From NCBI GenBank assembly GCA_900751785.1, contig CAADSM010000019.1, positions 1 through 21,194 on the forward strand: a stretch of DNA of 21,194 bases, read 5' to 3'. How positions within the stretch are numbered: the first letter of the stretch is position 1; every line of letters begins with the position of its first letter. Under the pieces are notes generated by a model, which was not told where the DNA came from, made no database searches, and was given only the letters and a program-made list of their open reading frames with translations. Position numbers and translations under genes: made by a program. Origin of the DNA: Lachnospiraceae bacterium. Lineage in GTDB: Bacteria; Bacillota; Clostridia; Lachnospirales; Lachnospiraceae. Below are positions 93 to 21,014 of the stretch, one piece after another.

Positions 93-3000
93 ATGAAAAC
101 GAAAGCAGGGCGGACCTTGCAAAAAGGTCTTGCATTAGTTTTGAGCGGTGCATTGACACTTTCAACAGGCGTGCTGAATGTCTATGCAGTCAGTGGCGAT
201 GAGGATACCCCGATCTATGAAGGCAATCTGCTTCTGAATCCTGGGTTTGAAGACGTCCGTGCCGACTGGGACTTTATTAACAGCAGCGGAAGCAGCGGAG
301 TCGGAGGAAGCGGTTCTGGTATCCAGCAGAATAATCCTCATACAGGAAAATATGGCTTCTTTTTGGACAGAGCAGAACGCTACGGCATTGAACAGACCGT
401 GATCGTTCCGTACAGCGGTTATTATAAAACATCGGCATATATTGCAACAGGTGGATCAAATTCCACTTTCGGAGTGAAATATAAAGACGGAGAGACGATA
501 CAGGAAATTGTCCTGCCTAACGGTGCAACATATGACGCGGCACATACTCTGCCGGCTGTCGAACTCAAGCAGGGAAATGAAATCCAGGTATATGTTTACG
601 GAGGAACCTCCTGGACAAATGGCGATGATATCTCTTTTGAGTACGATACGTCGCAGGTTACCTACAATTTAATGAAATGGACAGATTTTTCAGAGGATCC
701 TGAGCCGGAGATTCGTGTTCCGCGCGCCGGAGGATATGTATTCAGCGCTGATGTCAGCGCGGAGACAGACCTGACGATTACCTGCGGTGAACAGAGTCAG
801 ACCGTCCCGGCTGGAAGCAGTGAAAATGTTTCATTTACGGTGGATGACTGCGAACTGGGGCAGGTACTCAGGTTTACTTCCAGCGGCGAGGGGACGATCA
901 GCAGTCCTTCCCTGATATTTGACGTTTCCAGTATTCCGAATGAAGCGCCTTCAGCGGAAAATGTAAAGGCAGCAGGCACGGTACATTCCGGACTTTCATT
1001 GACTGGTACCTACACTTTTACAGATCCCGATGAAGGACAGACTGAGGGAAACTCCAGCTATCGATGGCTCGTGAGTGATACAAAGGACGGAGAATATACA
1101 GCGATTGAGAATGAAAATTCTACGCTGCTGACGCTGACCGATGAACTTGAAGGAAAGTACATCAAGTTTGAGGTGACACCGATAGACAATTATGGACTTT
1201 CCGGTGAAGCGTTTGTATCTGATGCGGTAGGACCGGTACAGATCAACTGGGTACGCAATCCGGGGCTGGAAATCGAATCCAGTTCTAACGGAGTTATCGG
1301 CTGGACCGGAAGAAACGGGGGCTCCACACCAAATAATAGAAATAATGCTCACGGCGGATTCCGTTATGTAAGCCTTCCCGCGGAGGACAGCGATGCAGAG
1401 GCTTATTATGGCATTACAGTTGAGCGCGATGCTTATTATACTGCCGGCGCATGGGTAAAGCTGCCGGAGGGTGAAAGCACTTTAGGCGTACGGCTTGCAG
1501 GGGCATCTTCTCCGATCAAATCCATTACGATTCCTGCTTCTTCGGAGTATACGTATGTAACACTTACAGATATTCCGCTTGAAAAAGGAAGCTCAGTTGA
1601 GATTTATGTGATGGGAAACAGCGGTGGAGAAGCGATGTATGCGGATGATTTTGAGCTTATCATAGACAGCTCGAAAGTTCCGCCGGCTTATGCGAATCTT
1701 CTTTCCTTTACTGCGGAGGGCCAGATTGGCGATACTGTGATCGACACGGAAAATAAAACAATTACGTTCAAAGTACCTTATGGCACTGATACAAGCAGGA
1801 TTAAGATCGAGGCAGTGTATTCTGACGGAGCAGTCATGACACCAGCTTCCGGCTCTGTGCTCGATTTTTCGAGTGGATCTCAGAAGTTCACGATCCAGAA
1901 TTGCGATGTGATCAATGAGTGGACCGCAAACTGTGTTGTCAAGGAGAAAACCGTTGCTCTGGAATCGGATAACGCGACACTGGAAGATGGATTTAACTGG
2001 GCAGTAGATAAGACCGCGCAGTTTGTCATGACCGGTCAGAACGGCATCATCAACGGAAAGCCGGAAGATCCGGATGGAACAGGAAATGCAGATTACATCC
2101 CTTCTTATTGGGCAGGATACTATAACCGTACCGCATTTTACGGACGTGATTTTGTACACCAGGCGACAGGCGCCGAGCTTGTCGGTCTGACGGAAGAAAA
2201 TTATAGTATGTTCAACGCATTTGCAAAATCTTCGACAGAAGCGCGAAAGTGGTATGCTCTGTGGGCGCTGAATTTTGACGGAAGCCCGTATACTGTAGAC
2301 TACAAGAGCGATACAAACTTTGTCCGCGAGGTACCCGCGCAGTTTGAGCTGGTTGAGAAGGCATATAAGCAGTTCCTGTGGTCCGGCGACGAGCGCTATA
2401 TCAGCGATGAGATGTTTAACTTCTATACAAAAGTAATGACCGATTTTGTGGAACTGCATGATACAAACGGCAACGGCGTTGCAGAGGGTACCGGCGAAGG
2501 CATCTGGAGCGGCTCATGCACATACAATGAGCGGGGTGGCCAGCCGATCATTGAGGCAGGCGATGCGATCGGATCTCAGTATCAGGCGACTCTGGCATAT
2601 GCAGGATTCTGCAAAGCACGCGGAGATGAAGAGTCTGCGGAGCTGTGGTATCAGAAGGCAGCAGATCTGAAGAAGTACTTTAATGAAGAATGGGGAGTCA
2701 TGCCGGGGGATGAAGACGGCAATTATGCCCGTGCTCTTTCTACTGACGGCGTAACAAAATATAATGACTTCGGTAAAGAAAACAGCTGGTTCATGCCGCT
2801 GAAAATGATCACGGAGCCAGGAGAGAAAAACGATAACTATCTGGATTTTATTTCCGAGAATCTGGCGGACGGAATCGGAACAGGGCCGAATGCGCCGACA
2901 AATATTGAAGCATATACATATATTCCGGATATGTTCTTCCTGTACAATCGGAACAACGATGCATGGAAATGGATGAAATATATCCTGAGTGTCAAGGACG

Positions 3001-4316
3001 ATACACATGAGAATGCGGCTCAGGGAACAAACGGAGATTATCCTGAAATTTCATATACGCTGGTTTCTCAGACCGTGGAAGGCATGATGGGAGTTACGCC
3101 GAACGTGCAGGAAAAGACACTTACTACGGTTCCCAGACTGCCGGACGAGGTGGGATATGTTACTCTGAAATATCAGGAGGTCGGAAACAATGAGATTGAC
3201 CTGACACATAACGGCAATACAGAATCTGTGCTGCATAATACTTCAGGCGATACCCTTACATGGGAGGCGCAGTTCTATGGCGAGTACAATCCCATCCTGT
3301 TTGACGGCGAGCCTGTCGCAGCTCAGCAGAAGGAGATCAATGGAGAAACAGTGAGTTATGCATCCGTTTCCATTGAAGCTGGACAGACTGTAACCGCAGC
3401 AGCGGCGAACAGAGAAGAAGAAGTCAGCAAGAAGACACTGGAATATTTCCTGAACAGTGCAAAAGAGCACCTGGCAAACGGAGATGCAGATGATGCAGTA
3501 GAATCTGTTCAGAAACTTCTCGAAGAGGCGATCGCAGAAGGCGAAGCTGTCATGGCAAAAGAGGATGCGACGAAAGAAGAGGTCATGAATGCGACCGTGA
3601 AGCTGATGAAAGCGATCCAGGCGCTGGATATGAAAGCGGGCGACAAGACTGACCTTGAGATGGCTGTCGAGCTGGGCGATATGATCGACCTGAGCAAATA
3701 TGTTGAGGCAGGACAGAAGGAATTTACAGACGCGCTTGTAGCAGCCAAGGATGTGCTGGCGGACGGAGATGCGATGCAGGAGGATATTGACTCTGCATGG
3801 AGCGCACTTGTGGACGCCCTTGACAATCTGAGACTGAAAGCAAACAAGGACGCGCTGGAAGACCTTCTGGATGAGGTCAGCGGCCTTGACCTGAGCCAGT
3901 ATACAGAGGAGTCAGTGGCAGTGTTTAAGCAGGCACTCGCAAGGGCGAATGAGGTAATGGCTGACGAGACATTATCTGAGGATGACCAGGATACTGTAGA
4001 CGAGGCAGTCTCGGCTCTTCAGAGTGCGGTGGACAGTCTTGTGGCCAAGGCAGATGACACTGGCGACGGCGGACAGACCGGCGGCAGTGATGACGGAAAT
4101 TCATCCGGCAGCGGACAGAATGGCGGCAGCCAGAACAATAATGGACAGAGCGGTAACAGTCAGAACAACGGCACTGCGTCAGGAAGCTCGGATAAGAGTT
4201 CTGTCAGCGGCAGCAAGGCGGTAAAGACCGGGGATACAGCAGCGGCAGGCATACTGCTTGCGGTCGTGATGCTCTCGGGCGGCGCGGTCATAGTACTGAA
4301 AAAGAGAAGAGCATAA
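93..4316 (+). CDS. Protein A: surface-anchored six-hairpin glycosidase-like protein
   Basis: Predicted secreted, wall-attached glycoside hydrolase of 1407 residues; substrate unknown. Start: ATG at 93 gives a normal signal peptide (MKTK then a hydrophobic run) and has AAAGGA at 75-80. The in-frame ATG at 81 has no spacing, and the TTG at 63 has no ribosome site. Domains (approximate residues): signal 1-35; jelly-roll-like binding module 44-190; second beta module 193-285; Ig-like 283-383; second binding module 382-526; DUF5018-like beta module 530-618; (alpha/alpha)6-type catalytic region 628-1010 plus beta domain to 1105; three FIVAR-like repeats 1111-1319; Gly/Ser/Asn/Gln linker; KTGD 1378-1381, hydrophobic segment, KKRRA tail. 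Conserved acidic residues shared with protein C include R685-D686, E813, E821, D824 and E896, and a DxNGNGxxE calcium-loop-like motif starts at D790. I cannot name the GH family. Its own terminator follows. Confidence 0.9.
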   Translation: MKTKAGRTLQKGLALVLSGALTLSTGVLNVYAVSGDEDTPIYEGNLLLNPGFEDVRADWDFINSSGSSGVGGSGSGIQQNNPHTGKYGFFLDRAERYGIEQTVIVPYSGYYKTSAYIATGGSNSTFGVKYKDGETIQEIVLPNGATYDAAHTLPAVELKQGNEIQVYVYGGTSWTNGDDISFEYDTSQVTYNLMKWTDFSEDPEPEIRVPRAGGYVFSADVSAETDLTITCGEQSQTVPAGSSENVSFTVDDCELGQVLRFTSSGEGTISSPSLIFDVSSIPNEAPSAENVKAAGTVHSGLSLTGTYTFTDPDEGQTEGNSSYRWLVSDTKDGEYTAIENENSTLLTLTDELEGKYIKFEVTPIDNYGLSGEAFVSDAVGPVQINWVRNPGLEIESSSNGVIGWTGRNGGSTPNNRNNAHGGFRYVSLPAEDSDAEAYYGITVERDAYYTAGAWVKLPEGESTLGVRLAGASSPIKSITIPASSEYTYVTLTDIPLEKGSSVEIYVMGNSGGEAMYADDFELIIDSSKVPPAYANLLSFTAEGQIGDTVIDTENKTITFKVPYGTDTSRIKIEAVYSDGAVMTPASGSVLDFSSGSQKFTIQNCDVINEWTANCVVKEKTVALESDNATLEDGFNWAVDKTAQFVMTGQNGIINGKPEDPDGTGNADYIPSYWAGYYNRTAFYGRDFVHQATGAELVGLTEENYSMFNAFAKSSTEARKWYALWALNFDGSPYTVDYKSDTNFVREVPAQFELVEKAYKQFLWSGDERYISDEMFNFYTKVMTDFVELHDTNGNGVAEGTGEGIWSGSCTYNERGGQPIIEAGDAIGSQYQATLAYAGFCKARGDEESAELWYQKAADLKKYFNEEWGVMPGDEDGNYARALSTDGVTKYNDFGKENSWFMPLKMITEPGEKNDNYLDFISENLADGIGTGPNAPTNIEAYTYIPDMFFLYNRNNDAWKWMKYILSVKDDTHENAAQGTNGDYPEISYTLVSQTVEGMMGVTPNVQEKTLTTVPRLPDEVGYVTLKYQEVGNNEIDLTHNGNTESVLHNTSGDTLTWEAQFYGEYNPILFDGEPVAAQQKEINGETVSYASVSIEAGQTVTAAAANREEEVSKKTLEYFLNSAKEHLANGDADDAVESVQKLLEEAIAEGEAVMAKEDATKEEVMNATVKLMKAIQALDMKAGDKTDLEMAVELGDMIDLSKYVEAGQKEFTDALVAAKDVLADGDAMQEDIDSAWSALVDALDNLRLKANKDALEDLLDEVSGLDLSQYTEESVAVFKQALARANEVMADETLSEDDQDTVDEAVSALQSAVDSLVAKADDTGDGGQTGGSDDGNSSGSGQNGGSQNNNGQSGNSQNNGTASGSSDKSSVSGSKAVKTGDTAAAGILLAVVMLSGGAVIVLKKRRA
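3423..4049 (+). repeat. FIVAR cassette, copy 1 (209 codons)
   Basis: Encodes three helical FIVAR-like repeats starting VSKKTLEYFLNSAKEHLANG. The same 627-nt unit, without any length change, ends all four proteins. FIVAR modules in other surface glycosidases act as stalks or sugar/protein-binding spacers. Confidence 0.8.
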
Positions 4317-4361
4317 AACAAGAGATATGTGTTAAGGACGTAATAGAGAAATAGTAAGGAG

Positions 4362-4413
4362 GAGCCACTGTGAAGCAGCCGGAGACACCGGCTGTGGAGC
4401 AGCGGCTCTTTAT
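4362..4413 (+). terminator. Rho-independent terminator after gene A
   Basis: GAGCCACTG (4362-4370) pairs with CAGCGGCTC (4400-4408), with one G-T pair, around an inner perfect stem CAGCCGG/CCGGCTG (4376-4382 and 4388-4394). A short TTTAT tail follows. It resembles the terminators after genes B and C. Confidence 0.75.
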
Positions 4414-4630: not shown

Positions 4631-7600
4631 ATGAAAAGAAAACGGCTTGTTAGAATGCTCGGCGTTGTCCTCAGCTGTACGATGCTGTTTGGGGCAGTCC
4701 CGGGACTTCCGGTATCTGCGGCGGAGCAGTCAAGGTATCTGACTGATGCCGAGGGAAATCAGAGGGCACAGGTCGGAAAGATGACCGCTCAGAATCATGA
4801 GATCATCGATATTAACATCACAGACGGAAAAATACACAAGATTTCAGTGTATCTTCTGGACGAGGACAACTCCGGTCGCTGGAGTATAGTGGATATGATC
4901 GATCCAGATACACAGAAGCTGATGGACAGCCAGAATGTATATGATTTTTCTGACGGAGTGTATCTGAGCTATAATGTGTCCGGGCATGTTCAGCTCCGTT
5001 TGACAAATGTTTGGACGAAAAGGTATCAGGACTCCAAGGATACTGCCATTCACGGGATTTTTATTGACGGAGAAGATGCAGTAGAGAAGGGAGTCGCCAA
5101 AGTCGAGACGGGAAAAGTTGAGGAAGAGAAAGCAGCAGATGAACTCGACTGCATAAATGTTCTCGGAAGATTTGCGAATGCAGGGGAAGATTTCAGTGAG
5201 CCCTTCGACAAAGAGGTGCAGTCTGTAGAAATGCGTTTTGACGGAAGCATTGATCCGTCGAATGAAAACATCGACCAGATTCAGGTGTTAAAAGGCGGCG
5301 TTCCGGTAGAAGGACAGATGAGAACAGGACTGTATTCTGTAACGTTCCAGCCGACAGCAACGTCTACTATGAGAGACGGCAGCTATGAAGTAGTGATTCC
5401 TGCGACAGTGAAAAATACAGAGGGCAAAGAGCTTGGGAAGGAGTACAGAACGAAATTTGAGGTTAAAACAGATGTTTTTGTAACATACTTCCGAGACGGT
5501 CTCAATTATCAGTCACGCCGTGTAGACGTTTCATTTAATGATCGGATCGCATCGTCGACACAGGCTGCGCTTGTATATAATGGAGAAGATGGAAGCCATG
5601 AGATTACACTGGCTAACGGCGGCTATGGGATTGGAAGCAACGGCGGCAGATTATTTGCTGTCATGAGCACGATCCTTCCGAGCGGTTCCTATACATTTAC
5701 ACTTCCGGCAGGAGTGGAGAGCATCAGCGGCGCTGTCAGCGAAGAGGACTATGTACACGAGTTTGATTTTGATTCCACGCAGCTGTCTGCCAAGATTCAG
5801 GCGCCGTATGCCGTGCAGACTGGAGAAACCTTTGAAATGGAAATTCCGGAGTGCTACGGGTACGGAGAAGTCAGGTATGCATTTTCAGAAGAAGATCTGC
5901 AGAAGGCGGAATATCAGCCTGTTGCAGAAAAGATCGAGATCGATCCGGGAAGTCTGACCGGGGACCAGACACTCTATGTACAGTTCCGTGTAAAATCGGG
6001 ATCAAAGGAAGGAACAGAATCCCCGCTTCTCCACAAGGCGTTTAAGATCGGAGAACTGCAGGAGGGTCGGGTGCTCTCATTTGATATGCAGTCTGCGGGA
6101 GCTTACGACAAGGACGGATTCGGAAGTGTTGCTAATCCGACAGACGGTGTCTTCGATCTTGCGACGGACGAATGGTGCGTTGATTATATGGGACCGAACG
6201 GCACGAGTAACTATATCGCGGACGGACAGTATGGTCTGAGCGGTCTGTATGACAACGATAAAGACGGTAAGATCGTGACAAAGGCGGGAATTGAATACCA
6301 GCTCTCGACAGGTCTTTATACAGATGGAGCCAAGAATGTTGCGACAGGAAACGGCGTAGAAGTACCGGCTCCGGCGGAGACGGAATATGAGAAGATCTAT
6401 GTCCTTGCTGCAGGAAAGAGCGACAGCGAAAAGGGAACGTTCGTAATGAATTATACGGATGGGACAAGCTCGGAGCAGGAAATTGAGACACATTACTGGG
6501 GCGGAGAGAATGCACCGACTGATAATATTGTGTTCAATCAGATCAATATGTGCGCCGGATGGAGTAATAATGCAATCTGGCAGGGTGCGGTAATGCGTCA
6601 GTATGAGCTGTATCCGGAACCGGGAAAAACATTAAAGAGCATTACGCTTCCTGAAACAACGAACCTGATCCGTGTATTTGCCATGACCGGAAAAGAATCC
6701 GATATAGTGAGCGGAGAAGCTGTGGCAGCTTATGACGGAGATGTACTTTCCCATCAGGCAGGTGATACGGCGCTGACACCGGAAGAGCAGGATATGACAT
6801 ACGATGAATTTATGGAACTGTATGGTGATGATCCTGTGCTGAAAGGTGCAGCAGACGTGACAGATGTGACAAATATCAAAGAAGTGCTGCCGGGAGAAAG
6901 AGATTATGACGAAGACATACTCAAAGAGCAGGAAACACCGACGGGAGAGTATGGACAGAGTCTGTATCCGTATGCGAGACAGCCTGAGAAACTGATGTCA
7001 TATAAGATCCGCATGCAGGCTTATGAGAATTACGAACTGGATTTTGAGGATGCTCTGGAAGCAATCAGACGTGTAGATAACCTGACACGCGGCCTGGACA
7101 AGAAATGCTATCTTGTGGGCTGGCAGACAAATGGCCATGATACAGGATATCCGTATATCGGAGAAGTGAATCCGAGACATAAACGTCCTATGGACGAGAC
7201 GTCTCTGGACAGCTTGAAATGGCTGATCAAAGAAGCAAAAGAAAAATACAATACGACGATCACACTGCATGTAAACTTCTCGGATGCGTATACAGATGAT
7301 GACCCGATCTCACAGCAGATGCTGGAGGATCAGCTTGCGATCCGAGAGGAGGATGGAACAATCCGGCCGACAGGATACTGGGCAGGACATAAGGGATACA
7401 GCGTGAGTGCATATGGAAACTATTTTACAGGCAACTGGCAGAAAAACCAGGTGGATCCGCTACTTGAGATGGTTCCGGAACTGGAAGGCCAGTCGATCCA
7501 TCCGGATGCGTGGTACAGCTGGGATGACCCGTATTATGGTCTGGGAAGCGATAAGACAACGGATGCGCAGAGGCGCTCTGCTATGTATATGCGCGAAAAC

Positions 7601-9565
7601 TATGGCATGGATCTGACAACAGAGTTTGACGTAGCGTTTGGCGCAGGAGAAGCGTTCCAGGAAGATCATGTATTATATTTCCCGATGATCTGGCAGCATG
7701 GATGGTCGAAGACCAATCCGCTGATGGTACCGTCATATATCCAGAGCGGTGTGAATGAGACGACATGGGACGGACAGTATATCAGCGCGGCAGGCCGTTA
7801 TTTCGGAGAAGGAACGGCAGTAGAGCCGAACCTCTGGGGCGACGCATATGCTTCTGTTACAATGCCGGGACTGAAACAGTCCTTTGCAGAAAAAGAACTG
7901 ACAAGACAGTACTTAAATACACTGCTCAGACACTCCTTGGAAGATGATGAGGCAGTGGGCGGAGAGGCAGTACTCTATTCTGGAGATGGACAGAAGGTCG
8001 TTTCCGCATGGAATGGAGACAATACATCTGCTTCTTATAAGAGAACAGTGACAGTAGGCGATGATGTAGTGCTTCAGGAACCAGGCAATGTATTTATGCC
8101 GATGACATGGCGCGCAGACAGAGAGATCCAGGCATGGAGCAAAGATGGATATCAGGATAAGGCATGGAAGCTTCCGGTAGAATGGGAAGACGTCGCACAG
8201 GTCGATATCTATGACCTGAACCTGGAAGGACTCAGATATATCGAGACGAAAGATGTTACAGACAGAACATTTATAATGGATATGGCAGCAGATCAGTCAG
8301 TAGTTATTGTTCCAGCGGGACAGGATCCGAACAGTACGAAGGGATTCGAACAGAACGGAACCGTACAGTTCCTCGGAAGAGATACTGAGACTGGCGGAAA
8401 CTGGACGAAAACTTATGGTGGAGAAGGCTATGATATCTACGATCAGTCTGGAGAAAATATGCTTCCGGAGTCCGTTGAGATTTCCTATGTAAACGGAAAC
8501 ATAGAAACAATTTCTACAGGTACGGTCAAGACAGAGCTTGAGGAACTGTATAATGCAGTAAAAGATCTTGAGAAGGGAAGTTATACAGACGAGAGCTGGA
8601 AGGCTTTCGAAGAGGCAAGAGATCATGCGAAAGCCGTACTCGATAACGAAGATGCGACACAGGAAGAAGTGGATGCAGCAGCAGATGGACTCCAGGCAGC
8701 CATTGACGGGCTGAGAGTCAGCAAGACGACACTGGAATATTTCCTGAACAGCGCAAAAGAGCATCTGGCAAACGGAGATGCAGATGATGCAGTAGAATCT
8801 GTTCGAAAGCTTCTTGAAGAGGCGATCGCAGAAGGCGAAGCCGTAATGGCGAAAGAGGATGCGACGAAAGAAGAGGTCATGAATGCGACCGTGAAGCTGA
8901 TGAAAGCGATCCAGGCGCTGGATATGAAAGCGGGCGACAAGACGGACCTTGAGATGGCGGTCGAGCTGGGCAATATGATCGACCTGAGCAAATATGTTGA
9001 GGCCGGCCAGAAGGAATTTACGGACGCACTTGCAGCGGCAAAGGATGTGCTGGCAGACGGAGACGCAATGCAGGAGGATATCGATGCTGCATGGAGCGCA
9101 CTTGTAGACGCCCTTGACAATCTGAGACTGAAGGCAAATAAGGATGCGCTGGAAGACCTTCTGGATGAGGTCAGCGGTCTTGACCTGAGCAAGTATACAG
9201 AAGAGTCGGTGGCAGTGCTTGAGAAGGCTCTTGCGAGAGCGAATGAGGTAATGGCTGACGAGACATTATCTGTGGATGACCAGGATACTGTAGACGAGGC
9301 AGTGAAGGCGCTGCAGAGCGCGAAAAACGGTCTCGTAGCCAAGACGGACGATACCGGAAACGGCGGTCAGAACGGTGGAAGCAATGATGGCAGTACATCC
9401 GGCAGCGGCCAGAACGGCGGCGCCGCGTCAGGAAGCGCGGATAAGAATCCTGTCAGCGGCAGCAAGGCGGTAAAGACCGGGGATACAGCAGCGGCAGGCA
9501 TACTGCTTGCAGTTGTAATGCTCTCAGGCGGTGCGGTCATCGTATTGAAAAAGAGAAGAGCATAG
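4631..9565 (+). CDS. Protein B: GH101-like endo-alpha-N-acetylgalactosaminidase-like surface enzyme
   Basis: Predicted wall-attached enzyme of 1644 residues. GH101 enzymes release Gal-beta-1,3-GalNAc from Ser/Thr of mucin-type glycoproteins; activity here is inferred. Approximate layout: signal 1-31; beta-sandwich 33-150 of the galactose-binding type; SbsA-like Ig modules about 178-380; beta modules to about 685; catalytic barrel about 785-1102 with a C-terminal beta domain to about 1270; one unique FIVAR 1302-1364; the shared FIVAR cassette 1364-1572; linker; KTGD 1615-1618, hydrophobic segment, KKRRA. GH101 hallmarks: VGWQTNGHDTG and HVNFSDAY, matching the GHDS and HVNASE motifs of the family. 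D959 in HPDAW fits the nucleophile position and E998 in TTEFD fits the acid/base, 39 residues apart (32 in the pneumococcal enzyme as I recall it). It could be a GH101-related subfamily or GH129-like with another specificity. Confidence 0.85.
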   Translation: MKRKRLVRMLGVVLSCTMLFGAVPGLPVSAAEQSRYLTDAEGNQRAQVGKMTAQNHEIIDINITDGKIHKISVYLLDEDNSGRWSIVDMIDPDTQKLMDSQNVYDFSDGVYLSYNVSGHVQLRLTNVWTKRYQDSKDTAIHGIFIDGEDAVEKGVAKVETGKVEEEKAADELDCINVLGRFANAGEDFSEPFDKEVQSVEMRFDGSIDPSNENIDQIQVLKGGVPVEGQMRTGLYSVTFQPTATSTMRDGSYEVVIPATVKNTEGKELGKEYRTKFEVKTDVFVTYFRDGLNYQSRRVDVSFNDRIASSTQAALVYNGEDGSHEITLANGGYGIGSNGGRLFAVMSTILPSGSYTFTLPAGVESISGAVSEEDYVHEFDFDSTQLSAKIQAPYAVQTGETFEMEIPECYGYGEVRYAFSEEDLQKAEYQPVAEKIEIDPGSLTGDQTLYVQFRVKSGSKEGTESPLLHKAFKIGELQEGRVLSFDMQSAGAYDKDGFGSVANPTDGVFDLATDEWCVDYMGPNGTSNYIADGQYGLSGLYDNDKDGKIVTKAGIEYQLSTGLYTDGAKNVATGNGVEVPAPAETEYEKIYVLAAGKSDSEKGTFVMNYTDGTSSEQEIETHYWGGENAPTDNIVFNQINMCAGWSNNAIWQGAVMRQYELYPEPGKTLKSITLPETTNLIRVFAMTGKESDIVSGEAVAAYDGDVLSHQAGDTALTPEEQDMTYDEFMELYGDDPVLKGAADVTDVTNIKEVLPGERDYDEDILKEQETPTGEYGQSLYPYARQPEKLMSYKIRMQAYENYELDFEDALEAIRRVDNLTRGLDKKCYLVGWQTNGHDTGYPYIGEVNPRHKRPMDETSLDSLKWLIKEAKEKYNTTITLHVNFSDAYTDDDPISQQMLEDQLAIREEDGTIRPTGYWAGHKGYSVSAYGNYFTGNWQKNQVDPLLEMVPELEGQSIHPDAWYSWDDPYYGLGSDKTTDAQRRSAMYMRENYGMDLTTEFDVAFGAGEAFQEDHVLYFPMIWQHGWSKTNPLMVPSYIQSGVNETTWDGQYISAAGRYFGEGTAVEPNLWGDAYASVTMPGLKQSFAEKELTRQYLNTLLRHSLEDDEAVGGEAVLYSGDGQKVVSAWNGDNTSASYKRTVTVGDDVVLQEPGNVFMPMTWRADREIQAWSKDGYQDKAWKLPVEWEDVAQVDIYDLNLEGLRYIETKDVTDRTFIMDMAADQSVVIVPAGQDPNSTKGFEQNGTVQFLGRDTETGGNWTKTYGGEGYDIYDQSGENMLPESVEISYVNGNIETISTGTVKTELEELYNAVKDLEKGSYTDESWKAFEEARDHAKAVLDNEDATQEEVDAAADGLQAAIDGLRVSKTTLEYFLNSAKEHLANGDADDAVESVRKLLEEAIAEGEAVMAKEDATKEEVMNATVKLMKAIQALDMKAGDKTDLEMAVELGNMIDLSKYVEAGQKEFTDALAAAKDVLADGDAMQEDIDAAWSALVDALDNLRLKANKDALEDLLDEVSGLDLSKYTEESVAVLEKALARANEVMADETLSVDDQDTVDEAVKALQSAKNGLVAKTDDTGNGGQNGGSNDGSTSGSGQNGGAASGSADKNPVSGSKAVKTGDTAAAGILLAVVMLSGGAVIVLKKRRA
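8717..9343 (+). repeat. FIVAR cassette, copy 2 (209 codons)
   Basis: Same 627-nt unit as at the end of gene A. Bases 8852-8943 are identical over 92 nt to 3558-3649, including synonymous positions, which points to recent exchange. It is preceded by a separate, non-shared FIVAR module at about 8535-8716. Confidence 0.8.
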
Positions 9566-12700: not shown

Positions 12701-13937
12701 AAACGGGGATTACCCGGAGATTTCCTTTACATTCGTATCACATACGATTGAGGGAATGATGGGTGTAGAGCCGAATGCAGGCGAAGGCTTCGTTGCGACA
12801 AGCCCGAGGCTTCCGCAGGAGGTTGCGGATGTGACAGCTCAGTATATCGATATCGGCGACTATGAGCTCGATCTTACACATACAGGAAATACTGCGTCAG
12901 AGATGACCAACCATTCCGACCAGGATCTGACATGGGAAGCGAGATTCTACGGAGACTACAGCAGCATTAAGTTTGGAGATGAGACTGTTCCGGCTGAGCA
13001 GAAGGAGATCAACGGCGAACTTGTCAGCTACGCGCAGGTAACGCTGAAAGCGGGAGAAACCCTGAAGGCTGAAGCAGCAGAGGATTCAGATGAGGTCAGC
13101 AAGACGACCCTGGAATATTTCCTGAACAGTGCGAAAGAACATCTTGCAAACGGAGACGCTGATAATGCGGTTGAATCTGTGCGGGAGCTGCTGGAAGAGG
13201 CAATCGCAGAAGGTGAAGCTGTTATGGCGAAGGAAGATGCCACAAGAGAAGAAGTCATGAACGCGACTGTGAAGCTGATGAAAGCGATCCAGGCGCTGGA
13301 TATGAAGGCCGGAAACAAGACAGATCTCGAGATGGCGGTTGAGCTGGCGCACATGATCGATCTGGAGAAATACGTAGAGAAGGGACAGCAGGAGTTTAAG
13401 GATGCGCTTGCTGCGGCAGAGGCTATGCTGGCGGACGGCGATGCAATGCAGGAAGATATTGACTCTGCGTGGAACGCGCTGGTAGATGCGATGGACAATC
13501 TGAGGCTGAAAGCCAACAAAGATGCTTTGGAAGACCTTCTTGACGAAGTGAGCGGTCTGGACCTGAGTAAGTACACAGAGGAGTCTGCGGCAGTATTTAA
13601 GCAGGCACTTGACAGAGCGAATGCAGTGATGGAGGATGAGACCTTATCCGTGGATGACCAGGCGGTTGTCGACGAGGCTGCGCAGACGCTTATGAGCGCA
13701 AGGGACGGTCTTGCAGCTAAAGTGGATGATACTGGCGATGGAAACCAGGGCGGAGGATCTGGAGATGGAAATTCCTCCGGAAACGGAAACAGCCAGGATC
13801 CTTCGAATGGCTCCAGCCAAAATGCAGGAGGAAATAAAGCTGCTAAGACAGGAGATTCGGTACCGGTCGGCATACCGATGGCGGCAGTGCTGGCATCAGG
13901 AGCGGCAGTCATTGCATTGAGAAAGAAAAGAAGATAA
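9765..13937 (+). CDS. Protein C: surface-anchored six-hairpin glycosidase-like protein, paralogue of A
   Basis: Predicted wall-attached glycosidase of 1390 residues. It has the same order of parts as protein A: signal 1-31 (cleavage near AFA-AEP); jelly-roll-like module 48-176; beta module 185-295; Ig-like 296-397; second binding-like module 398-525; DUF5018-like module 529-615; (alpha/alpha)6-type catalytic region from 629 to about 1010, then its beta domain; FIVAR cassette 1111-1319; linker; KTGD 1361-1364, hydrophobic segment, basic tail. The catalytic region is very close to A (for example FYSRDFVHQATG, YNERGGEPLLEAGD, GKENSWFMP), with R685-D686, E814, E822, D825 and E896 in place. The binding modules are much more diverged than the catalytic region, which suggests the same chemistry with altered targeting. 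The sorting motif reads AAKTGDS instead of AVKTGDT. The GH family is not recognised. Confidence 0.9.
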   Translation: MKRKQVILLAALTALSVTCTSVLPLGTAFAAEPQSQVSAQDSTEETGDNLLSNPSFENGLDSWNGSSYGTATNNPAPVGGPTHYYLDPNGWIGQKLIVPYTGYYKVSTWVAVGGSGAYFGANNDTTGERHGVDIDTGSTYTRYEQEVWMNQGEQIDVFMLANSAGWVNGDEFSLTYNTFRFPNMAVSPKFESDTVWTKTGNAVIENGQAVLSGESDAVSQSITIPQDGPYYAEVELENADGAVVSFGGQTSETVSGTQTVKVAVDELKKDDSAEIKISGTAVVKSVTVGFDLSSIPNEAPAISNLKIEGNLTADESLEASYDFSDPDGHVEGATRFQWLISDSADGEFTPIEGATDKRIALKEEWEDKYLKLEVTPVDQYEKAGETVTSEVMGPVNVNLVQDPGFEKDGQGWKGIGLSNRDAYDGLVRGIVSANGEAAQSITVKRSGYYDLSAFTRYTGKEKGTISVEDEAGSVLAEMDVTPGDGYQKTEEKGIALEQGQTVVLRLTGASDKAYDIDNICLMRDREQGMPSFNSVLGIKTAPEAFETVIDRAEKTVNLSYLYGEDISSVTVDEITVSESASSSLQAGDVIDLTSPVEVTVTGKDGQATTWTLVGDHKEKKVKVSSSNEYLEDTFNWAANKLDQFVMTGKHGPVNKDENRPDGTGEADYIPSYWAGYYDRTAFYSRDFVHQATGGQIAGLEEENYTMFNTFAKNCTEARKFYTVWALNFDGTPHTIDYKDDTNFVREVPAQFELVEKAYKQYLWSGDERYIWDEDMFNFYTNVMTKYVELHDSNGNGIAEGTGGGIFQGTASYNERGGEPLLEAGDAIGSQYQATLAYAGILEARGDEAGAKEWYQKAADLKKYFNEEWSVAEGQEDTYARGWSTDGVTKYTGFGKENSWFMPMKLITEPGERNDAYIDYILENLGDGIGSVPTAPTNIEAYTYIPDMLFPYNRSDDAWKWMKYITSIKDEPHERPSQGTNGDYPEISFTFVSHTIEGMMGVEPNAGEGFVATSPRLPQEVADVTAQYIDIGDYELDLTHTGNTASEMTNHSDQDLTWEARFYGDYSSIKFGDETVPAEQKEINGELVSYAQVTLKAGETLKAEAAEDSDEVSKTTLEYFLNSAKEHLANGDADNAVESVRELLEEAIAEGEAVMAKEDATREEVMNATVKLMKAIQALDMKAGNKTDLEMAVELAHMIDLEKYVEKGQQEFKDALAAAEAMLADGDAMQEDIDSAWNALVDAMDNLRLKANKDALEDLLDEVSGLDLSKYTEESAAVFKQALDRANAVMEDETLSVDDQAVVDEAAQTLMSARDGLAAKVDDTGDGNQGGGSGDGNSSGNGNSQDPSNGSSQNAGGNKAAKTGDSVPVGIPMAAVLASGAAVIALRKKRR
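13095..13721 (+). repeat. FIVAR cassette, copy 3 (209 codons)
   Basis: Same 627-nt length as the other three copies, beginning VSKTTLEYFLNS. It has more synonymous and amino-acid changes than copies 1 and 2, so it seems less recently homogenised. Confidence 0.8.
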
Positions 13938-13949
13938 GACATGATAGAA

Positions 13950-14001
13950 AGAGTCATTGCGAAAAACCGGATATTCCGGCAATAGAGCAATGGCTCTTTT
14001 T
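13950..14001 (+). terminator. Rho-independent terminator after gene C
   Basis: AGAGTCATTGC (13950-13960) pairs with GCAATGGCTCT (13987-13997) with one G-T pair; CCGG/CCGG forms an inner stem. TTTTT follows. It is similar in sequence and layout to the gene A and B terminators. Confidence 0.8.
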
Positions 14002-14059
14002 GACATTAATTTCCAGAAAAATACAGATAATTGGTAAAAGTGTATAAAAATATACCTTC

Positions 14060-14219: not shown

Positions 14220-17200
14220 GTGAAAAAAAGACAGCGTCGACGAGGCAGAAAGATACTCTGCGGAGTGCTGGCAGGTGTTACAGTAAGCAGCATGGCAGCA
14301 GTTCCGGGACTGGCAAGTACAGACTGGCCGGATATGGGGCCGGCAAATGCATTGACAGAAGATTATATGGGGCTGCATAGATCCGTAAGAGACAGTAACA
14401 TCCGGCCTGATGATATCCTTACACTGGATTCGGACAATGATTTATTGAAAAGGGCTTTCAGCAGATCTGTAGATTATGCTTATGATGAACTGGTTGTGGG
14501 GCCTAAACAGTTCCCGCTGGATGAACAGAATGAGCAGCGGATCAGCAAACACTATAATGGAGAGGGATATTATACAAGTACGGCAATTCCTGCGATCTGG
14601 GGAACTTATCACGGACTTCCGGGACAGTCTTACAGAGAGTGTTTCTGTGCCCGGGATGTAGCACATACATCGGAGGCAGGCGCTCTGCTTGCTTTGAATG
14701 AAGAGAATTACCAGATGCTCAGCCGCTTTGCGGAAGAGTCGGCAGATCTTTACTGGAGAGATGTATTTCACAGCGAAGACGGAGGATGGAGCACAAAGTC
14801 TGCAAATCAGAAATGGTGGACACTGTGGTCGTTTGATTTTTACGGCGATGCGTATTATATGGACGCCGGATTCCAGGAGCTGCCCGCTCCGTTCGAGGTC
14901 ATGGATAAAATATGGACACAGTACAGATGGACGGGTGATGAGCGCTGGATCGACGATACGATGATCAATTATGGAATGCAGCTGCATTCTTATGACAAAT
15001 TTATGAAAAACCATGATCTGGATGGCGACGGTCTGGCGGACAACGGTAAAAACGGAAGCATACTGCCGACATTATATGAGTTTGAGGCGTCGGGCTATCT
15101 CCAGGAGAGCGACGTTGACTGGGAGAAGATGGATGAGCCGACGGGCGATCCATCCTATCCGTATGAGTCGACACTGGTCATTAAACCGGATTTCTTTATG
15201 AACCACAGCTTTTATGAGCTTCCGCTCACTATGAAACTGATCGGGAAATCCGGAAATACAGATGTTGAGCAGGGAGAAAATGCATATATTGTCCGGATCA
15301 GGAATAAAGAGTACGATGCGGAAAAACCGGCAGTTTTAAAAACCTTTGAACAGATGAGCAGCAGGAATAATTATGCGGATATCCATGATGTGGAAATTCC
15401 CGTTTATATACCGGAAGGTGTAACATTTGAGGTCTATAATTCTGCTGAGAAAATGAATGAGGAGTATTATACTGTCTCAGATAATGGCGATGGGACAAAG
15501 ACCATAACCGTGAAAGAAGATTTCTTCAGGCATGAATACGCTGACAACGGGATATACAGGACCAATACCGGAATCGTTGTCCGGTTCAGCGATGGATCAT
15601 CAGGCATGGCGATCATCAAACTGGACGATTCGAATGTAAATGGAGACCTGAATGTAGTATCGATCAAAAAGAACGGCACGGATGTGACAGATTCTCTGGA
15701 ATTTGATCCTTCGATCAATACTACGTATCTGGATTACGACGCCGCTGAGCTTGCGGATACGGTATATACTCTGACGATCAGGCACTCCGATCCTGTTACG
15801 CCGAAGAAGGAACAGGCAGGGAGCCTGCAGGAATACTGCCGTATTGCAAGTGATCTGACACGTGTGACTACAGCAGGTGATACAGCCGGAACACAATATC
15901 AGGCGCTTCTTGCTATGGCAGGCATGATCCGGGCAAGGATCGCGGCAGGAGATACGACGTTCCAGCCCTTCCATCTTGAAAAAGGAGTCAAGGTCAATGA
16001 AGGAGAACCGATTACCCTGACAGAAGAGATGGCGCAGGAGTACGAAGACCGGGCAGCGGGAATACGGGATATCATTGAGTCAGAGTGGAGAGATGAAAGC
16101 GCTCCTCAGATCTATGCCCGCGCAGTCAATAAGCTTGGCGAAAAAGATATGGGATGGGGACATGAAAACAGCTTCTTCATGCCGATGAAAGAATTGCTTA
16201 ATCCGGGAGAGGATACGATCAAATATTTGAATTTTATCCAGAAAAATGCACTCCTCGAGGATCAGCTGAACGAAGAGGCTATCACATATCTGCCTGAGAG
16301 CTTCTACACACATGGACAGAATGTGGCAGGATGGCAGTGGACAAAAGTCGGATTAGACCGTCTTGATCCGGGGAAAAAGACGGAGACTGAAATACTCCGT
16401 ACCTATCCGGAAATCGCACTGACCAATATCTCAAATGTTGTCAATCTGATGATGGGCGTTGAGCCATATGCAGCGGACAATGAGGTGACGACTCTTCCCA
16501 GACTGACAGACGAGGTCGGCTGGGTCACGGTGAATAACATTCCGCTTGGACAGGAAGGAAGAGAGGCTCTTAATAACGACGGGCGGGACAGCGACGGAAA
16601 CGGAAGACCGACAGGTTACGGAAAACCGATGGTTAATAACAGTTTTGATCTGACTCATGTCGGAACCGCTCAGTCAACGCTTACAAATACCGGTGATGAG
16701 ACGATCACGTGGAACGCAGAGTTTTACGGCACATATGACAAGCTTTATAAAACGGTTGACGGAGAAGTGACTGAGCTGACGGAAGGAATTTACCACAAGG
16801 ATACCGCTCCGGCAAGTACGTACTGTACGATCAAAGTGGAGCCGGGAGAGACCATTACAGTCGGAACTCAGAAGGATCCGAATGGTGCGAAGCCGAATAC
16901 GGACGGTATGATCTATCTGTCCGATCAGGAGGCTGCGTTTGAGGATTACCCGGACGACAAGCCGGTGCAGAAGGATCAGACGATTGGCGGAACCGCTTTA
17001 TACAACTATACATTTACAGAACATTATGACAAAGGCCTGGGAGTAAAACCGAATACTACGATCCGGTATTATCTGCCGGAGGGGACAGAAGCATTTAAAG
17101 CAGTGCCGACAATAACTGATTTTGTACGCGGACAGGATCCGCAGGAGACAGCGGCGGAGATCACATTCCGTGTATATCTCGACGGCGAGCTGAAGCAGAC

Positions 17201-20200
17201 GGTAACCCTGAATAATGAAAAACCTACAGGCGATGAACTTGATATTGCGATAGACGGACAGAGTGTTCTGGATCTTGTCGCGGTTTCTGAAAATCAGAAC
17301 ATCCAGGAGAGTGCGGCCTGGCTTGATGCAAGGATTTTGGTAGAAGGCCAGGATGAGATACCTTCTGATCTTCCGGACAATAAGCTGTACCTGACCAGTA
17401 TGCAGGCTGTGGATGAGAGCGGAGAAGTTTCGGCAGACCAAAGTACGCAGAATGCTGCTGCACTTGAGATTGACGGACATGCGTTCGGACGAGGAATCGG
17501 CTCCAATGGAAGCTCAGAGGTTACATATGAGCTGTCTGGATTATATGAGAAACTGGACGCTGTGATCGGAATCCAGGATGGAAACAGCGGAAGCGCGGTG
17601 TTTAAGGTATATCTTGACGACAGTCAGACACCGATGTTTGAACATACAGCAGATGCGGACAGCGGTGAAGAGAAGGTCAGCATCGATCTGAGCGTGGACG
17701 GAAAGCGCGCGGATCGGATCCGGATCGTTACCGAGGGAGATACACATTCCGTATGGGGAGATATGATCCTTACGATAGGAGATGATGTGGATCTGACAGA
17801 CCCGGCGATCATTGCAAAAAGGATCGCTTCAGCAGAAGATATCGGCCTTGGACAGAAAGAATATAATCTTCCTGAAATTCCTGTGAAAAATGCGGATGAC
17901 TATACAATTGAAATCGCATCATCATCAGAGGAAGCTGTACTTGCACTGGACGGTACGATTACACTGGATGATAATGAGCATGATATCGCAGTCAGCTTTA
18001 GAATAACAGAAAAGGAAGGGCAGAAGCGCTCGGCAGTTACGCGGGAGTTCGTTATCTATGCGCCTGGTAAAGACAAGATTTCTTTGACAAAGCTTAAGTG
18101 GACGGACTCTGTTTCCGAAAATGCACCAGTAACAATAAACGAGGATATCAAAGGCAATATCCTGAAACTTGACGACACAGAATACAGCAGAGGAATAGGT
18201 ATGCCGGCGGCTCCGGCAAGCCAGATCACATATGAGCTTGAGGATGGATTGTATAAGCGTTTTACAGCGACAGTGGGTGCGGCGCAGAACAGTTCGGTAA
18301 ATGACAATGACCTGTTCCGAGTATTTGTGTATGCAGTAGATCAGAACGGCAAGAGAACAGAGCTGTATGCAAGCCCTGTGTTTGTAAAGGGACCGGTTGA
18401 CCAGAACAATCATCTGAATTGTGATCTATGTAAAGCAGAGATTGAAAAGTATGGTCTGGCAGCTCAGGATACGGTTGATGTGGATATTCCTTCAGGATAT
18501 CGGCAGCTTGTGATCCGTACAGAGCGTATCGGAGATTCCTTCTGGGGTTCCTGTGCGATCGCTGATCCGTATTTCTATTTAAATTCTCCGTATGAGGGAA
18601 AAGAAATCGAATCGTTTGAACCGGTATCCGTGCAGACGGTGAAGGGTGTGAAACCGGTGCTTCCTGATATGGTAAAAGCGATTTACAAGGATATGGACGT
18701 TCCGCGTAATATCCGTGTGACATGGGATGAAATTGATGAGAGCCTGTATCAGGAGGTCGGCCAGTTTACAGTGAGCGGCACCGTGGAAGGTTCTGACAAG
18801 AGACCGGAATGCCTGGTAGAGGTCAAAGATAAGATTATCCTTACCGCAGAGAATGCATCTGTAGTTACCACGATAGGCAATGCTCCGGTAATGCCCGAGA
18901 CAGTACGTGTTCAATATAATGACAACAGCTCTGGCGAAGAGAAAGTTACATGGGATCCGATGGACGAATCAAACTGGGCACAGGCAGGAAAATTCACGGT
19001 GATGGGAACTGTGGATGGAACCGACATACGTGTGGGCTGTATCGTCCGGGTGGATGATCCTAACAAAGTAATCGTAGCGGATATGGAACCGGAATCAGAG
19101 ACGGCAATGGAGAGCGTGCAGAGAGGTACCTTCCGTATTAACGGAAAAGACTACGAAAACAGTATATTTGCACATGCTGATTCTGAGCTCATCTATGTGC
19201 TGGACGGACAGTATACAAGGTTTACTACAACAGTAGGTATTAAGACGGAAGGGGACAACCCGAATGTTATATTCCGCGGATACGGAATTGACGAAAATGG
19301 AGAAGAAACGCTGCTGTACGATACAAATCCGGTTACCCGTGTGGCAGATCCTTCAAAGCCGCCGCAGACGACCGATGAAAACGGATACTATTATGTCGGC
19401 GGAAATGTATCATATGATGTGGATGTAGATGTAACAGGCTTCCAGAAGCTGAAGCTTGTGGCCGATGTTGTCGGCAATCCGAATACCGACCATGCTACTT
19501 ATGGTACTCCGATCCTTTATAAAGAAGGTTCTGAATTTGGAAAGAATTTCCATACGATAACTGTTACGGCGGACGAAGGAGGAGCTATCTGGCCGAACGG
19601 ACGCGTAGTTGTTCCAGACGGCGAGAGCAAAGAATTTATCATTACTCCAAACCCGGCAAATCCGGTGCTTCCTGAAGTGAAAGAGATGGCCATCAATGAG
19701 TTTAAGCTGGATGAAACTGAGCAGACAGTGACAGATAACAGGTTCGTGCTTGAAAACGTAGATCAGGATCATACGATCAGCGTGAACTTCAGAGATGCAT
19801 CCGAAGTACCTGACGTGAAGTATAATGTGCAGGTAGTGAATGGAAGCGGAAGCGGTGAATGGGCGGCAGGTTCGACTGTCTCCATTACGGCAGACGCTGC
19901 ACCTGAAGGACAGGTATTTGACTGCTGGGTAAGTGATGACGGCGTTGAGTTTGCAGATGCGCAGGCAGCATCCACGACTTTCGTAATGCCGGAGAAAGAT
20001 GTGACGGTAACTGCTACATATAAGGAAAGCCAGGTGAGCAAAAAAACACTTGAATATTTCCTGAACAGTGCAAAAGAGCATCTCGCAAACGGTGATGTGG
20101 ATGATGCAGTAGAATCCGTCCAGAAGCTGTTTGAAGAGGCGATCGCGGAAGGCGAGGCGGTCATGGCAAAAGAAGATGCGACGAGAGAAGAAATCATGAA

Positions 20201-21014
20201 TGCCACCGCGAAGCTGATGAAGGCGATCCAGGCGCTGGATATGAAAGCGGGAGATAAGACAGACCTTCAGATGGCAGTTGAGCTGGCCGATATGATCGAC
20301 CTGAGCAAATACGTGGAAGCAGGACAGAAGGAATTTACGGATGCGTTTGCAGCGGCAAAAGACGTGCTTGCGGATGGCGATGCAATGCAGGCGGATATTG
20401 ACTCCGCATGGAGCGCTCTTGTGGACGCCCTTGACAACCTGAGACTGAAAGCGAATAAAGATGCGCTGGAAGATCTCCTGGATGAAGTCAGCGGATTAGA
20501 TCTGAGCCAGTATACTGAGGAGTCGGCGGCAGTGTTCGAGCAGGCGCTGATGAGAGCAAATGAGGTCATGGCTGATGAGACGCTGTCCGTGGAAGACCAG
20601 GCGGCAGTAGATGAAGCGGTTCAGGCACTGCAGAGCGCGAAGGACGGTCTTGTGTTGAAGTCGGATGACACCGGCGACGGCGACCAGAATACTGGCGATG
20701 GCGATCAGAATACTGGCGACGGCGACCAGAATACCGGCGATAGCGATCAGAATACCGGCAACGGCGACCAGAATACCGGCGACGGCAGTCAGAATAACGG
20801 TGGAAGCCAGGATACCGGTAACGGCGGAAAAGATACTGGAAGTCCGGCTGACGGACAGAACGGCAAAGCTCCGGCCGACGGTGCGGTACAGAAAACTGAA
20901 AGCGGCAGAAAAGCTGTGAAGACCGGAGATACGGCGGCAGCAGGAATGCTTCTGGCAGTGCTTCTGATTTCGGGCGTTACGGCGGTGACAGTGCTGAAAA
21001 AGAAAAGAGCATAA
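14220..21014 (+). CDS. Protein D: giant multimodular surface glycosidase-like protein with NPCBM modules
   Basis: Predicted wall-attached protein of 2264 residues with a GTG start. Approximate layout: signal 1-32; (alpha/alpha)6-type catalytic region 60-885, interrupted at about 275-545 by a beta-rich insertion; four NPCBM-like modules (896-1043, 1055-1190, 1286-1454, 1616-1770); an atrophied Ig-like module 1192-1284; two Big_4-like modules 1462-1612; two InlB B-repeat-like modules 1777-1935; FIVAR cassette 1939-2147; Asp/Gly/Gln/Asn repeat linker; KTGD 2234-2237, hydrophobic segment, KKKRA. It is homologous to A and C at R145-D146 (CARDVAH), AGDTAGTQYQ, GHENSFFMP with E649, TYPEI, and FDLTHVGTAQS. 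It lacks the YNERGG(E/Q)P..EAGD segment of A and C: the place reads TTAGD, so up to two glutamates are lost. Substrate and mechanism may differ, or catalysis may be lost. NPCBM modules are known to bind galactose/GlcNAc-type glycans. Confidence 0.88.
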   Translation: MKKRQRRRGRKILCGVLAGVTVSSMAAVPGLASTDWPDMGPANALTEDYMGLHRSVRDSNIRPDDILTLDSDNDLLKRAFSRSVDYAYDELVVGPKQFPLDEQNEQRISKHYNGEGYYTSTAIPAIWGTYHGLPGQSYRECFCARDVAHTSEAGALLALNEENYQMLSRFAEESADLYWRDVFHSEDGGWSTKSANQKWWTLWSFDFYGDAYYMDAGFQELPAPFEVMDKIWTQYRWTGDERWIDDTMINYGMQLHSYDKFMKNHDLDGDGLADNGKNGSILPTLYEFEASGYLQESDVDWEKMDEPTGDPSYPYESTLVIKPDFFMNHSFYELPLTMKLIGKSGNTDVEQGENAYIVRIRNKEYDAEKPAVLKTFEQMSSRNNYADIHDVEIPVYIPEGVTFEVYNSAEKMNEEYYTVSDNGDGTKTITVKEDFFRHEYADNGIYRTNTGIVVRFSDGSSGMAIIKLDDSNVNGDLNVVSIKKNGTDVTDSLEFDPSINTTYLDYDAAELADTVYTLTIRHSDPVTPKKEQAGSLQEYCRIASDLTRVTTAGDTAGTQYQALLAMAGMIRARIAAGDTTFQPFHLEKGVKVNEGEPITLTEEMAQEYEDRAAGIRDIIESEWRDESAPQIYARAVNKLGEKDMGWGHENSFFMPMKELLNPGEDTIKYLNFIQKNALLEDQLNEEAITYLPESFYTHGQNVAGWQWTKVGLDRLDPGKKTETEILRTYPEIALTNISNVVNLMMGVEPYAADNEVTTLPRLTDEVGWVTVNNIPLGQEGREALNNDGRDSDGNGRPTGYGKPMVNNSFDLTHVGTAQSTLTNTGDETITWNAEFYGTYDKLYKTVDGEVTELTEGIYHKDTAPASTYCTIKVEPGETITVGTQKDPNGAKPNTDGMIYLSDQEAAFEDYPDDKPVQKDQTIGGTALYNYTFTEHYDKGLGVKPNTTIRYYLPEGTEAFKAVPTITDFVRGQDPQETAAEITFRVYLDGELKQTVTLNNEKPTGDELDIAIDGQSVLDLVAVSENQNIQESAAWLDARILVEGQDEIPSDLPDNKLYLTSMQAVDESGEVSADQSTQNAAALEIDGHAFGRGIGSNGSSEVTYELSGLYEKLDAVIGIQDGNSGSAVFKVYLDDSQTPMFEHTADADSGEEKVSIDLSVDGKRADRIRIVTEGDTHSVWGDMILTIGDDVDLTDPAIIAKRIASAEDIGLGQKEYNLPEIPVKNADDYTIEIASSSEEAVLALDGTITLDDNEHDIAVSFRITEKEGQKRSAVTREFVIYAPGKDKISLTKLKWTDSVSENAPVTINEDIKGNILKLDDTEYSRGIGMPAAPASQITYELEDGLYKRFTATVGAAQNSSVNDNDLFRVFVYAVDQNGKRTELYASPVFVKGPVDQNNHLNCDLCKAEIEKYGLAAQDTVDVDIPSGYRQLVIRTERIGDSFWGSCAIADPYFYLNSPYEGKEIESFEPVSVQTVKGVKPVLPDMVKAIYKDMDVPRNIRVTWDEIDESLYQEVGQFTVSGTVEGSDKRPECLVEVKDKIILTAENASVVTTIGNAPVMPETVRVQYNDNSSGEEKVTWDPMDESNWAQAGKFTVMGTVDGTDIRVGCIVRVDDPNKVIVADMEPESETAMESVQRGTFRINGKDYENSIFAHADSELIYVLDGQYTRFTTTVGIKTEGDNPNVIFRGYGIDENGEETLLYDTNPVTRVADPSKPPQTTDENGYYYVGGNVSYDVDVDVTGFQKLKLVADVVGNPNTDHATYGTPILYKEGSEFGKNFHTITVTADEGGAIWPNGRVVVPDGESKEFIITPNPANPVLPEVKEMAINEFKLDETEQTVTDNRFVLENVDQDHTISVNFRDASEVPDVKYNVQVVNGSGSGEWAAGSTVSITADAAPEGQVFDCWVSDDGVEFADAQAASTTFVMPEKDVTVTATYKESQVSKKTLEYFLNSAKEHLANGDVDDAVESVQKLFEEAIAEGEAVMAKEDATREEIMNATAKLMKAIQALDMKAGDKTDLQMAVELADMIDLSKYVEAGQKEFTDAFAAAKDVLADGDAMQADIDSAWSALVDALDNLRLKANKDALEDLLDEVSGLDLSQYTEESAAVFEQALMRANEVMADETLSVEDQAAVDEAVQALQSAKDGLVLKSDDTGDGDQNTGDGDQNTGDGDQNTGDSDQNTGNGDQNTGDGSQNNGGSQDTGNGGKDTGSPADGQNGKAPADGAVQKTESGRKAVKTGDTAAAGMLLAVLLISGVTAVTVLKKKRA
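20034..20660 (+). repeat. FIVAR cassette, copy 4 (209 codons)
   Basis: Same 627-nt unit, beginning VSKKTLEYFLNS, fused here to InlB-like repeats instead of a catalytic beta domain. The junction lies at the same residue as in the other proteins. Confidence 0.8.
20673..20798 (+). repeat. Six tandem 21-nt repeats in the wall-linker of protein D
   Basis: Six consecutive 21-base units of the type GGCGACGGCGACCAGAATAC(T/C) encode a GDGDQNT heptad. Copies 1 to 3 are nearly identical; copies 4 to 6 carry changes (S for G, N for D, then N for T). The reading frame is kept throughout, so copy number can vary without breaking the gene. Confidence 0.9.

Follow-up and report, generated by a model that had tools for sequence, protein, structure and literature searches.

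A four-gene array from a Lachnospiraceae bacterium: a candidate (alpha/alpha)6 glycosidase family for alpha-galactosides and a remote GH101-type partner

What kind of catalytic domain do the four large proteins of this locus carry, and on which glycan would they act? The window (the whole stretch of DNA analysed, 21,194 nt) consists of four large forward-strand genes, A to D, and little else (Table 1). The initial annotation saw in it a GH101-like enzyme, B, beside three proteins sharing an (alpha/alpha)6 domain of no named family, and suggested an uncharacterised activity on host glycans. The explanation favoured here, with moderate confidence, places A, C and D in a new (alpha/alpha)6 family of glycosidases that invert configuration and act on alpha-galactosides, with B as a remote GH101-type partner.

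Table 1. Positions of genes, domains, candidate catalytic residues and signals in the window
Feature	Position	Strand	Remarks
Gene A	93..4316	+	signal-peptide-like start, Ig/CBM-like domains, (alpha/alpha)6 core, FIVAR repeats, sortase-like tail
A residues 528-1110 as modelled	1674..3422	+	beta domain, (alpha/alpha)6 domain, C-terminal beta-sandwich
Asp686 of A	2148..2150	+	RDxxH motif; proposed substrate-binding residue; R685, D686 and H689 in 22/22 cores
Asp824 of A	2562..2564	+	AGD motif, start of sixth long helix; proposed general acid; 22/22 cores
Glu985 of A	3045..3047	+	YPE motif, start of last helix; proposed general base; 22/22 cores
FIVAR-coding DNA repeat	3423..3722	+	copy in A; further copies at 8717, 13095 and 20034
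Terminator-like hairpin 3' of A	4358..4412	+	-36 kcal/mol, z -7.02
Gene B	4631..9565	+	Big_5, GH101-like catalytic domain, FIVAR repeats, sortase-like tail
B residues 760-1236	6908..8338	+	GH101-like barrel, then beta domain
Asp959 of B	7505..7507	+	HxDA motif; proposed nucleophile; 23/23 aligned
Glu998 of B	7622..7624	+	DxTxE motif; proposed acid/base; 23/23 aligned
Terminator-like hairpin 3' of B	9605..9670	+	-37.5 kcal/mol, z -8.83
20-nt element upstream of C	9686..9705	+	also upstream of D at 14060-14079
Gene C	9765..13937	+	A-like architecture; 53% overall identity to A
C catalytic core, about residues 615-1105	11607..13079	+	
Terminator-like hairpin 3' of C	13946..14008	+	-27.2 kcal/mol, z -7.35
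Gene D	14220..21014	+	2264 aa; N-terminal divergent core, NPCBM domains, Big_4, InlB-like repeat, FIVAR repeats, sortase-like tail
D core, about residues 60-880	14397..16859	+	deep paralogue of A and C
Extra stretch in acid loop of D	15042..15863	+	between HDLDGDGLAD and AGD; about 250 residues more than A
Best-scoring NPCBM/NEW2 stretch in D	17403..17762	+	PF08305, 200.3 bits, 4 stretches

Each of the four proteins ends in FIVAR repeats, recognized by Pfam, followed by a KTGD-hydrophobic-basic tail; the signal peptide, CBM-like part and tail of A were assigned by eye. The LPXTG models TIGR01167 and NF033846 score B below their cut-offs (15.2 against 15.9 and 14.3 against 23.5 bits) and C likewise (13.6 and 14.8 bits), and A and D are absent among the NCBIfam matches. 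Since the curated anchor models thus miss these proteins or do not list them, it is from the tails that attachment to the wall, and hence a surface location, is judged likely. Compared with the FIVAR-coding DNA of A, that of C has 82% and that of D 88% identity. The copies in A and B (3423-3722 and 8717-9016) are 95% identical while the catalytic parts of the two proteins are unrelated, which points to a recent exchange of tails or gene conversion.

Downstream of A, B and C there are terminator-like hairpins, which speak for separate transcription of the four genes and make a single operon unlikely; the hairpin after D is weak (z -2.20). The 20-nt element shared by C and D, for which 0 copies are expected in 100 shuffles with a pattern built post hoc from these two copies, has a diverged relative upstream of B (4465-4486, 16 of 22 letters, with 3 of 2000 plain shuffles doing as well) and no copy upstream of A within the window. 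It is possibly a site for a common regulator of B, C and D or a part of their promoters. A phage origin of the array was considered and set aside, with 0 megablast matches in 50,697 phage records, and none of six pattern matches in viral contigs encoded a relative.

The model of the A core gives good support to a predicted (alpha/alpha)6 barrel, the catalytic domain type of GH78, followed by a beta-sandwich. In fold comparison the list is headed by alpha-L-rhamnosidases, at about 10% identity, which beyond 2okx we presume to be GH78 enzymes. The PDB title of 2okx names that family. The scores of other (alpha/alpha)6 enzymes are not far below (27.1 for an amylo-alpha-1,6-glucosidase, 23-25 for GH65 and GH94 enzymes). 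GH78, GH15, GH63, GH65, GH94 and GH95 are all missing from the Pfam and NCBIfam matches of A, C and D at E <= 0.1. The (alpha/alpha)6 domain outside any named family, as initially described, is therefore borne out by the A model and by the lack of a Pfam or NCBIfam family match: A, C and D make up a glycoside hydrolase family with no model in these two curated libraries.

In the PDB, phmmer with A, B and D found accessory domains or nothing convincing, and a profile from alignment A1 (the A and C cores with 45 relatives) gave no GH78-, GH65-, GH94- or GH95-type match. Two apparent assignments were discarded. GH92 (TIGR01180) scores 18.4 bits on A against a cut-off of 249.55, over 63 residues only, and a CBM-like module in A, suggested by a match of the A1 profile to 2xom and similar entries (E = 1.4e-7), rests on positions supplied by other rows of the alignment. 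No literature on the family was found among the titles and abstract openings of an open-licence library.

In an alignment of 22 diverse cores picked by hand (A, C, D and 19 others), 14 positions are invariant in all. The nine with polar or aromatic side chains are R679, R685, D686, H689, W724, D824, E939, Y983 and E985 in A numbering. GH15-like inverting (alpha/alpha)6 hydrolases usually have their general acid before helix 6 and their general base before the last helix. Acidic residues are similarly placed in A, where the helix of model residues 296-315 begins with D824 and the last long helix, 457-471, with E985. Position and conservation together suggest the roles proposed for D824, E985 and D686 in Table 1.

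D is the outlier among the three. It retains all 14 invariant positions, the equivalents of D824 and E985 included, but it lacks Glu813, as does its relative P0147, has Thr at Glu821, and shares with P0147 the extra stretch in the acid loop. The missing and replaced acidic residues and the insertion could mean that the D core is a binding or regulatory domain instead of an active hydrolase; with every invariant kept, this seems rather unlikely. In the tree D falls into a deep, separate clade with P0147, P0148, G041, P0149 and L032, and the loci seen from this clade show no link to alpha-galactose. D is likely to be specific for another linkage.

The search with the A core gave 201 matches, of which 120 were listed and 45 were taken into A1. 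The core is found in Streptomyces, Paenibacillus, Burkholderia, Photobacterium and Psychromonas, genera that live mainly outside animal hosts, in soil or sea, and among the matches listed are also some gut-type Clostridia; the source names given in that listing are 'hypothetical protein' or refer to accessory domains. In overlapping sets of genomes the family was found in 5 of 391, 2 of 398, 3 of 206, 2 of 250 and 2 of 4, and eight plasmid records carry it, the same eight being returned by two further searches using other members. A groups with P0003 and C with P0023, both in one large clade but not as sisters. A recent origin of A, C and D by duplication of a single gene was rejected, as the tree separates them. 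Several branches are long and the placements of L013_Burk2, L014_Nono and L019_G249 are unsure. The closest mapped relative, G001, from an Oscillospiraceae MAG of roe deer rectum, is absent from the tree and is placed near A by its 77% identity to the A core.

The gene neighbourhoods that bear on the substrate come from the loci of relatives rather than from the window's own flanks: 13 loci with an A-type core were viewed (the orthologous L012 and L031 counted once, as were two contigs of G075; L002, a 4.8-kb Bacteroidales contig, and the S. atratus matches H4 and H5 stand outside the count), with a Pfam scan of selected frames per locus and some contigs short. About half of the neighbourhoods indicate alpha-galactose catabolism. 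In G001 a galactokinase, the sole one found in that genome, and GalT lie directly downstream of the family gene, a solute-binding protein, permease, histidine kinase and response regulator upstream, and a GH36-like gene, whose best PDB match is the T. maritima alpha-galactosidase (E = 2.4e-12), about 10 kb off. In Burkholderia pyrrocinia the order is LacI, family gene, ABC transporter and GH36 (389 bits), with a second, very divergent family copy upstream; in Streptomyces atratus it is LacI, alpha-galactosidase, ABC transporter and family gene, and Streptomyces NBC_01591 has the orthologous locus. A co-directional series in Nonomuraea comprises the family gene, a permease, a GH36-like gene (25.2 bits, below the cut-off of 27), GH95 and a GH110-like gene, with LacI-like and solute-binding-protein-like frames recognized by eye. 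G878 has an ABC permease, the family gene, AraC, GH4 and a GH36-like gene (44.9 bits), and G948 an ABC permease, the family gene and GH4, with no GH36 nearby. In G990 a GH36 gene lies 13.8 kb from a partial family match of 198 query residues, and blastp with the A core gave 0 matches among the called frames there.

No alpha-galactosidase-type neighbour was seen in the other six of the 13 loci: G041, G075, G103, G249 (where SusC and SusD precede the family gene and the genome has no PF02065), Photobacterium L011 and Streptomyces NBC_01276 (L032). An 863-aa frame beside galT in L001 (16625-19213) was disregarded as unreliable, having no Pfam match and an opposite-strand 845-aa frame across it. 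Galactomannan was also set aside as a substrate: GH26 occurs in only 2 of 13 records, a weak test in which five records are single replicons and to which GH5 did not belong.

The nearness of PF02065 to the family gene was put on a statistical footing in 13 genomes or records, with L014 (over 8 million bases) outside this set. A first test used 10 of the 13, omitting G103 and G075 (both fragmented, with many matches on other contigs) and W02 (an orthologue of W04); the final one restores G103 and G075 as misses and leaves out one orthologue (n = 12). PF02065 lies within 15 kb of a family gene in 5 of 12 (expected 0.64, P = 8e-5), within 12 kb in four (P = 7e-4) and within 6 kb in three (P = 0.0014). 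Without the two loci that generated the hypothesis, the counts are 3 of 10 (P = 0.009), 2 of 10 (P = 0.06) and 2 of 10 (P = 0.017), respectively. As the radii were chosen after the distances had been seen, the proximity supports the link without proving it. Loci that show it are spread over several branches of the tree, with none in the clade of D.

The genome G103 (2.0 Mb; contigs 5, 36, 79, 99 and others) is of interest in itself. It has 16 PF02065 matches, like the nine of G075 on contigs other than that of the family gene, together with A-type and B-type genes, and looks like an alpha-galactoside specialist. It also has seven copies of a family of roughly 400 aa (L015:10101-14948, L035:236-3839). 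Four of them come immediately after two A-type genes, and three are next to raffinose-synthase/GH36-like genes; the four copies in L015 have no Pfam match. They may represent a further glycosidase family of this guild that has yet to be assigned.

That a GH101-like enzyme stands beside A, C and D is upheld, though the relationship is remote: B passes the GH101 model PF12905 (38 bits, cut-off 25) and its model is GH101-like, with a structural identity of 16-18%. The model for the GH101 C-terminal beta domain, PF17451, stays below its cut-off (13.9 against 25 bits, E = 0.073). In an alignment of the B core with 22 of its 25 matches, the candidate catalytic residues are conserved throughout. By analogy with the GH101 enzyme of S. 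pneumoniae, Asp959 is proposed to correspond to Asp764 and Glu998 to Glu796, the residues mutated, according to the PDB titles, in 5a58 and 5a59. B-type domains occur fused to GH27 (P0141) and to a GH110-like domain (P0138), and in P0066 and P0070 they share one polypeptide with an A-type core. The B-type core had 0 matches in plasmid records, and P0142 gave no GH101 alignment against the PDB. The fusions in P0138 and P0141 cast doubt on reading every GH101 match as mucin-specific.

A host mucin system, in which B would be an endo-alpha-GalNAcase and A, C and D hydrolases of O-glycans, fits the GH101 score and model of B, the gut-type Clostridia among the relatives listed and the origin of one relative in roe deer rectum. 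The mucin-style binding modules of the initial annotation hold in so far as D has NPCBM domains (with a weak sequence match to PDB 2vmh, E = 0.0045), but D alone among the four window proteins has them, and we know of no demonstration that FIVAR is a mucin-binding module. According to an excerpt of PMC13096917, some mucin-active enzymes from a gut bacterium do carry FIVAR, and GH101 counts among the families involved in the breakdown of mucin sugars. Against a mucin system speak the presence of the core in Streptomyces, Paenibacillus and marine genera, the alpha-galactosidase and Leloir neighbours of its relatives, and the fusion of two B-type relatives to alpha-galactosidase-type domains. With the remoteness of B from GH101, these points weaken the case for host O-glycans, and a mucin system now appears unlikely. 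The soil and marine genera and the galactose-type neighbourhoods lead us to prefer an alpha-galactoside, and the family is probably directed at alpha-linked galactose sugars rather than being mucus-specific.

Within this preferred explanation, host glycans capped by alpha-1,3-galactose (the alpha-Gal epitope, blood group B) could be the target, A and C removing or exposing alpha-Gal and B cutting below it. The GH110-like and GH95 genes of Nonomuraea, the P0138 fusion and the NPCBM domains of D would suit such a target, but free-living members would have little reason to seek these caps, and the Pfam matches of A to D include no fucosidase or sialidase family, making it quite unlikely. Fungal or microbial polymers of alpha-Gal and GalNAc, such as galactosaminogalactan or alpha-galactan, would give A-type enzymes the Gal-type and B the GalNAc-type linkages. 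The pairing of a GH101-type domain with an alpha-galactose-linked family, even in one polypeptide, and the presence of the core in soil genera agree with this purely inferential proposal, which we hold to be doubtful. A different sugar, for example alpha-L-rhamnosides, on which the nearest folds act according to their titles, is very unlikely: rhamnosidases head the fold list at low identity with other (alpha/alpha)6 enzymes close behind, and no rhamnose gene is found among the selection of neighbours scanned with Pfam.

Returning to the alpha-galactoside explanation, we infer the following for catalysis, stereochemistry, substrate and endo or exo action. A and C, at the cell surface, would hydrolyse an alpha-galactoside by a single inverting displacement, with Asp824 protonating the leaving group and Glu985 activating the water, and B would probably act on the same substrate, at an internal bond of alpha-galacto configuration; this substrate might be an alpha-galactan, an alpha-Gal/GalNAc polymer or an alpha-Gal-capped glycoprotein glycan. 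The genes beside some relatives suggest that the products would be taken up, broken down to the end by GH36-, GH4- or GH27-type enzymes, phosphorylated by galactokinase and passed to the Leloir pathway. In a bolder and more tentative form, A, C and D would belong to the first (alpha/alpha)6 family for alpha-D-galactosides and B to GH101-related endo-alpha-galactanases, the two forming a joint alpha-galactan system, sometimes in one polypeptide, in gut, soil and marine bacteria. Its odds are slightly lowered by G001, where no B-type gene was found, and by the single B-type neighbourhood scanned (G103, L020/L037), where DprA-like and GerA-like genes but no sugar gene were seen.

A secreted enzyme family of several phyla would gain a predicted fold, candidate residues for catalysis and a class of substrates open to testing, and GH101 matches of B's type would need a second look before being read as mucin enzymes. 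Compared with the GH101 endo-alpha-N-acetylgalactosaminidases, B is remote, its two candidate catalytic residues are 39 positions apart as against 32 (the latter from the PDB titles), and GH27, GH110-like or A-type domains are the fusion partners of some domains of its type. With the GH78 alpha-L-rhamnosidases, GH65, GH94 and GH95, A, C and D have the (alpha/alpha)6 fold in common at a structural identity of only 8-15%, and the alpha-galactose neighbourhoods of their relatives set them apart. The known alpha-galactosidase families would resemble them in substrate, and several are gene neighbours or fusion partners of A- or B-type relatives, but the (alpha/alpha)6 fold of A differs: to our knowledge none of GH4, GH27, GH31, GH36, GH57 and GH97 is an (alpha/alpha)6 barrel. 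In an excerpt of PMC7939477 these six are the retaining families and GH110, a beta-helix, the inverting one; if the substrate is an alpha-galactoside, the fold of A would be new to the families given there.
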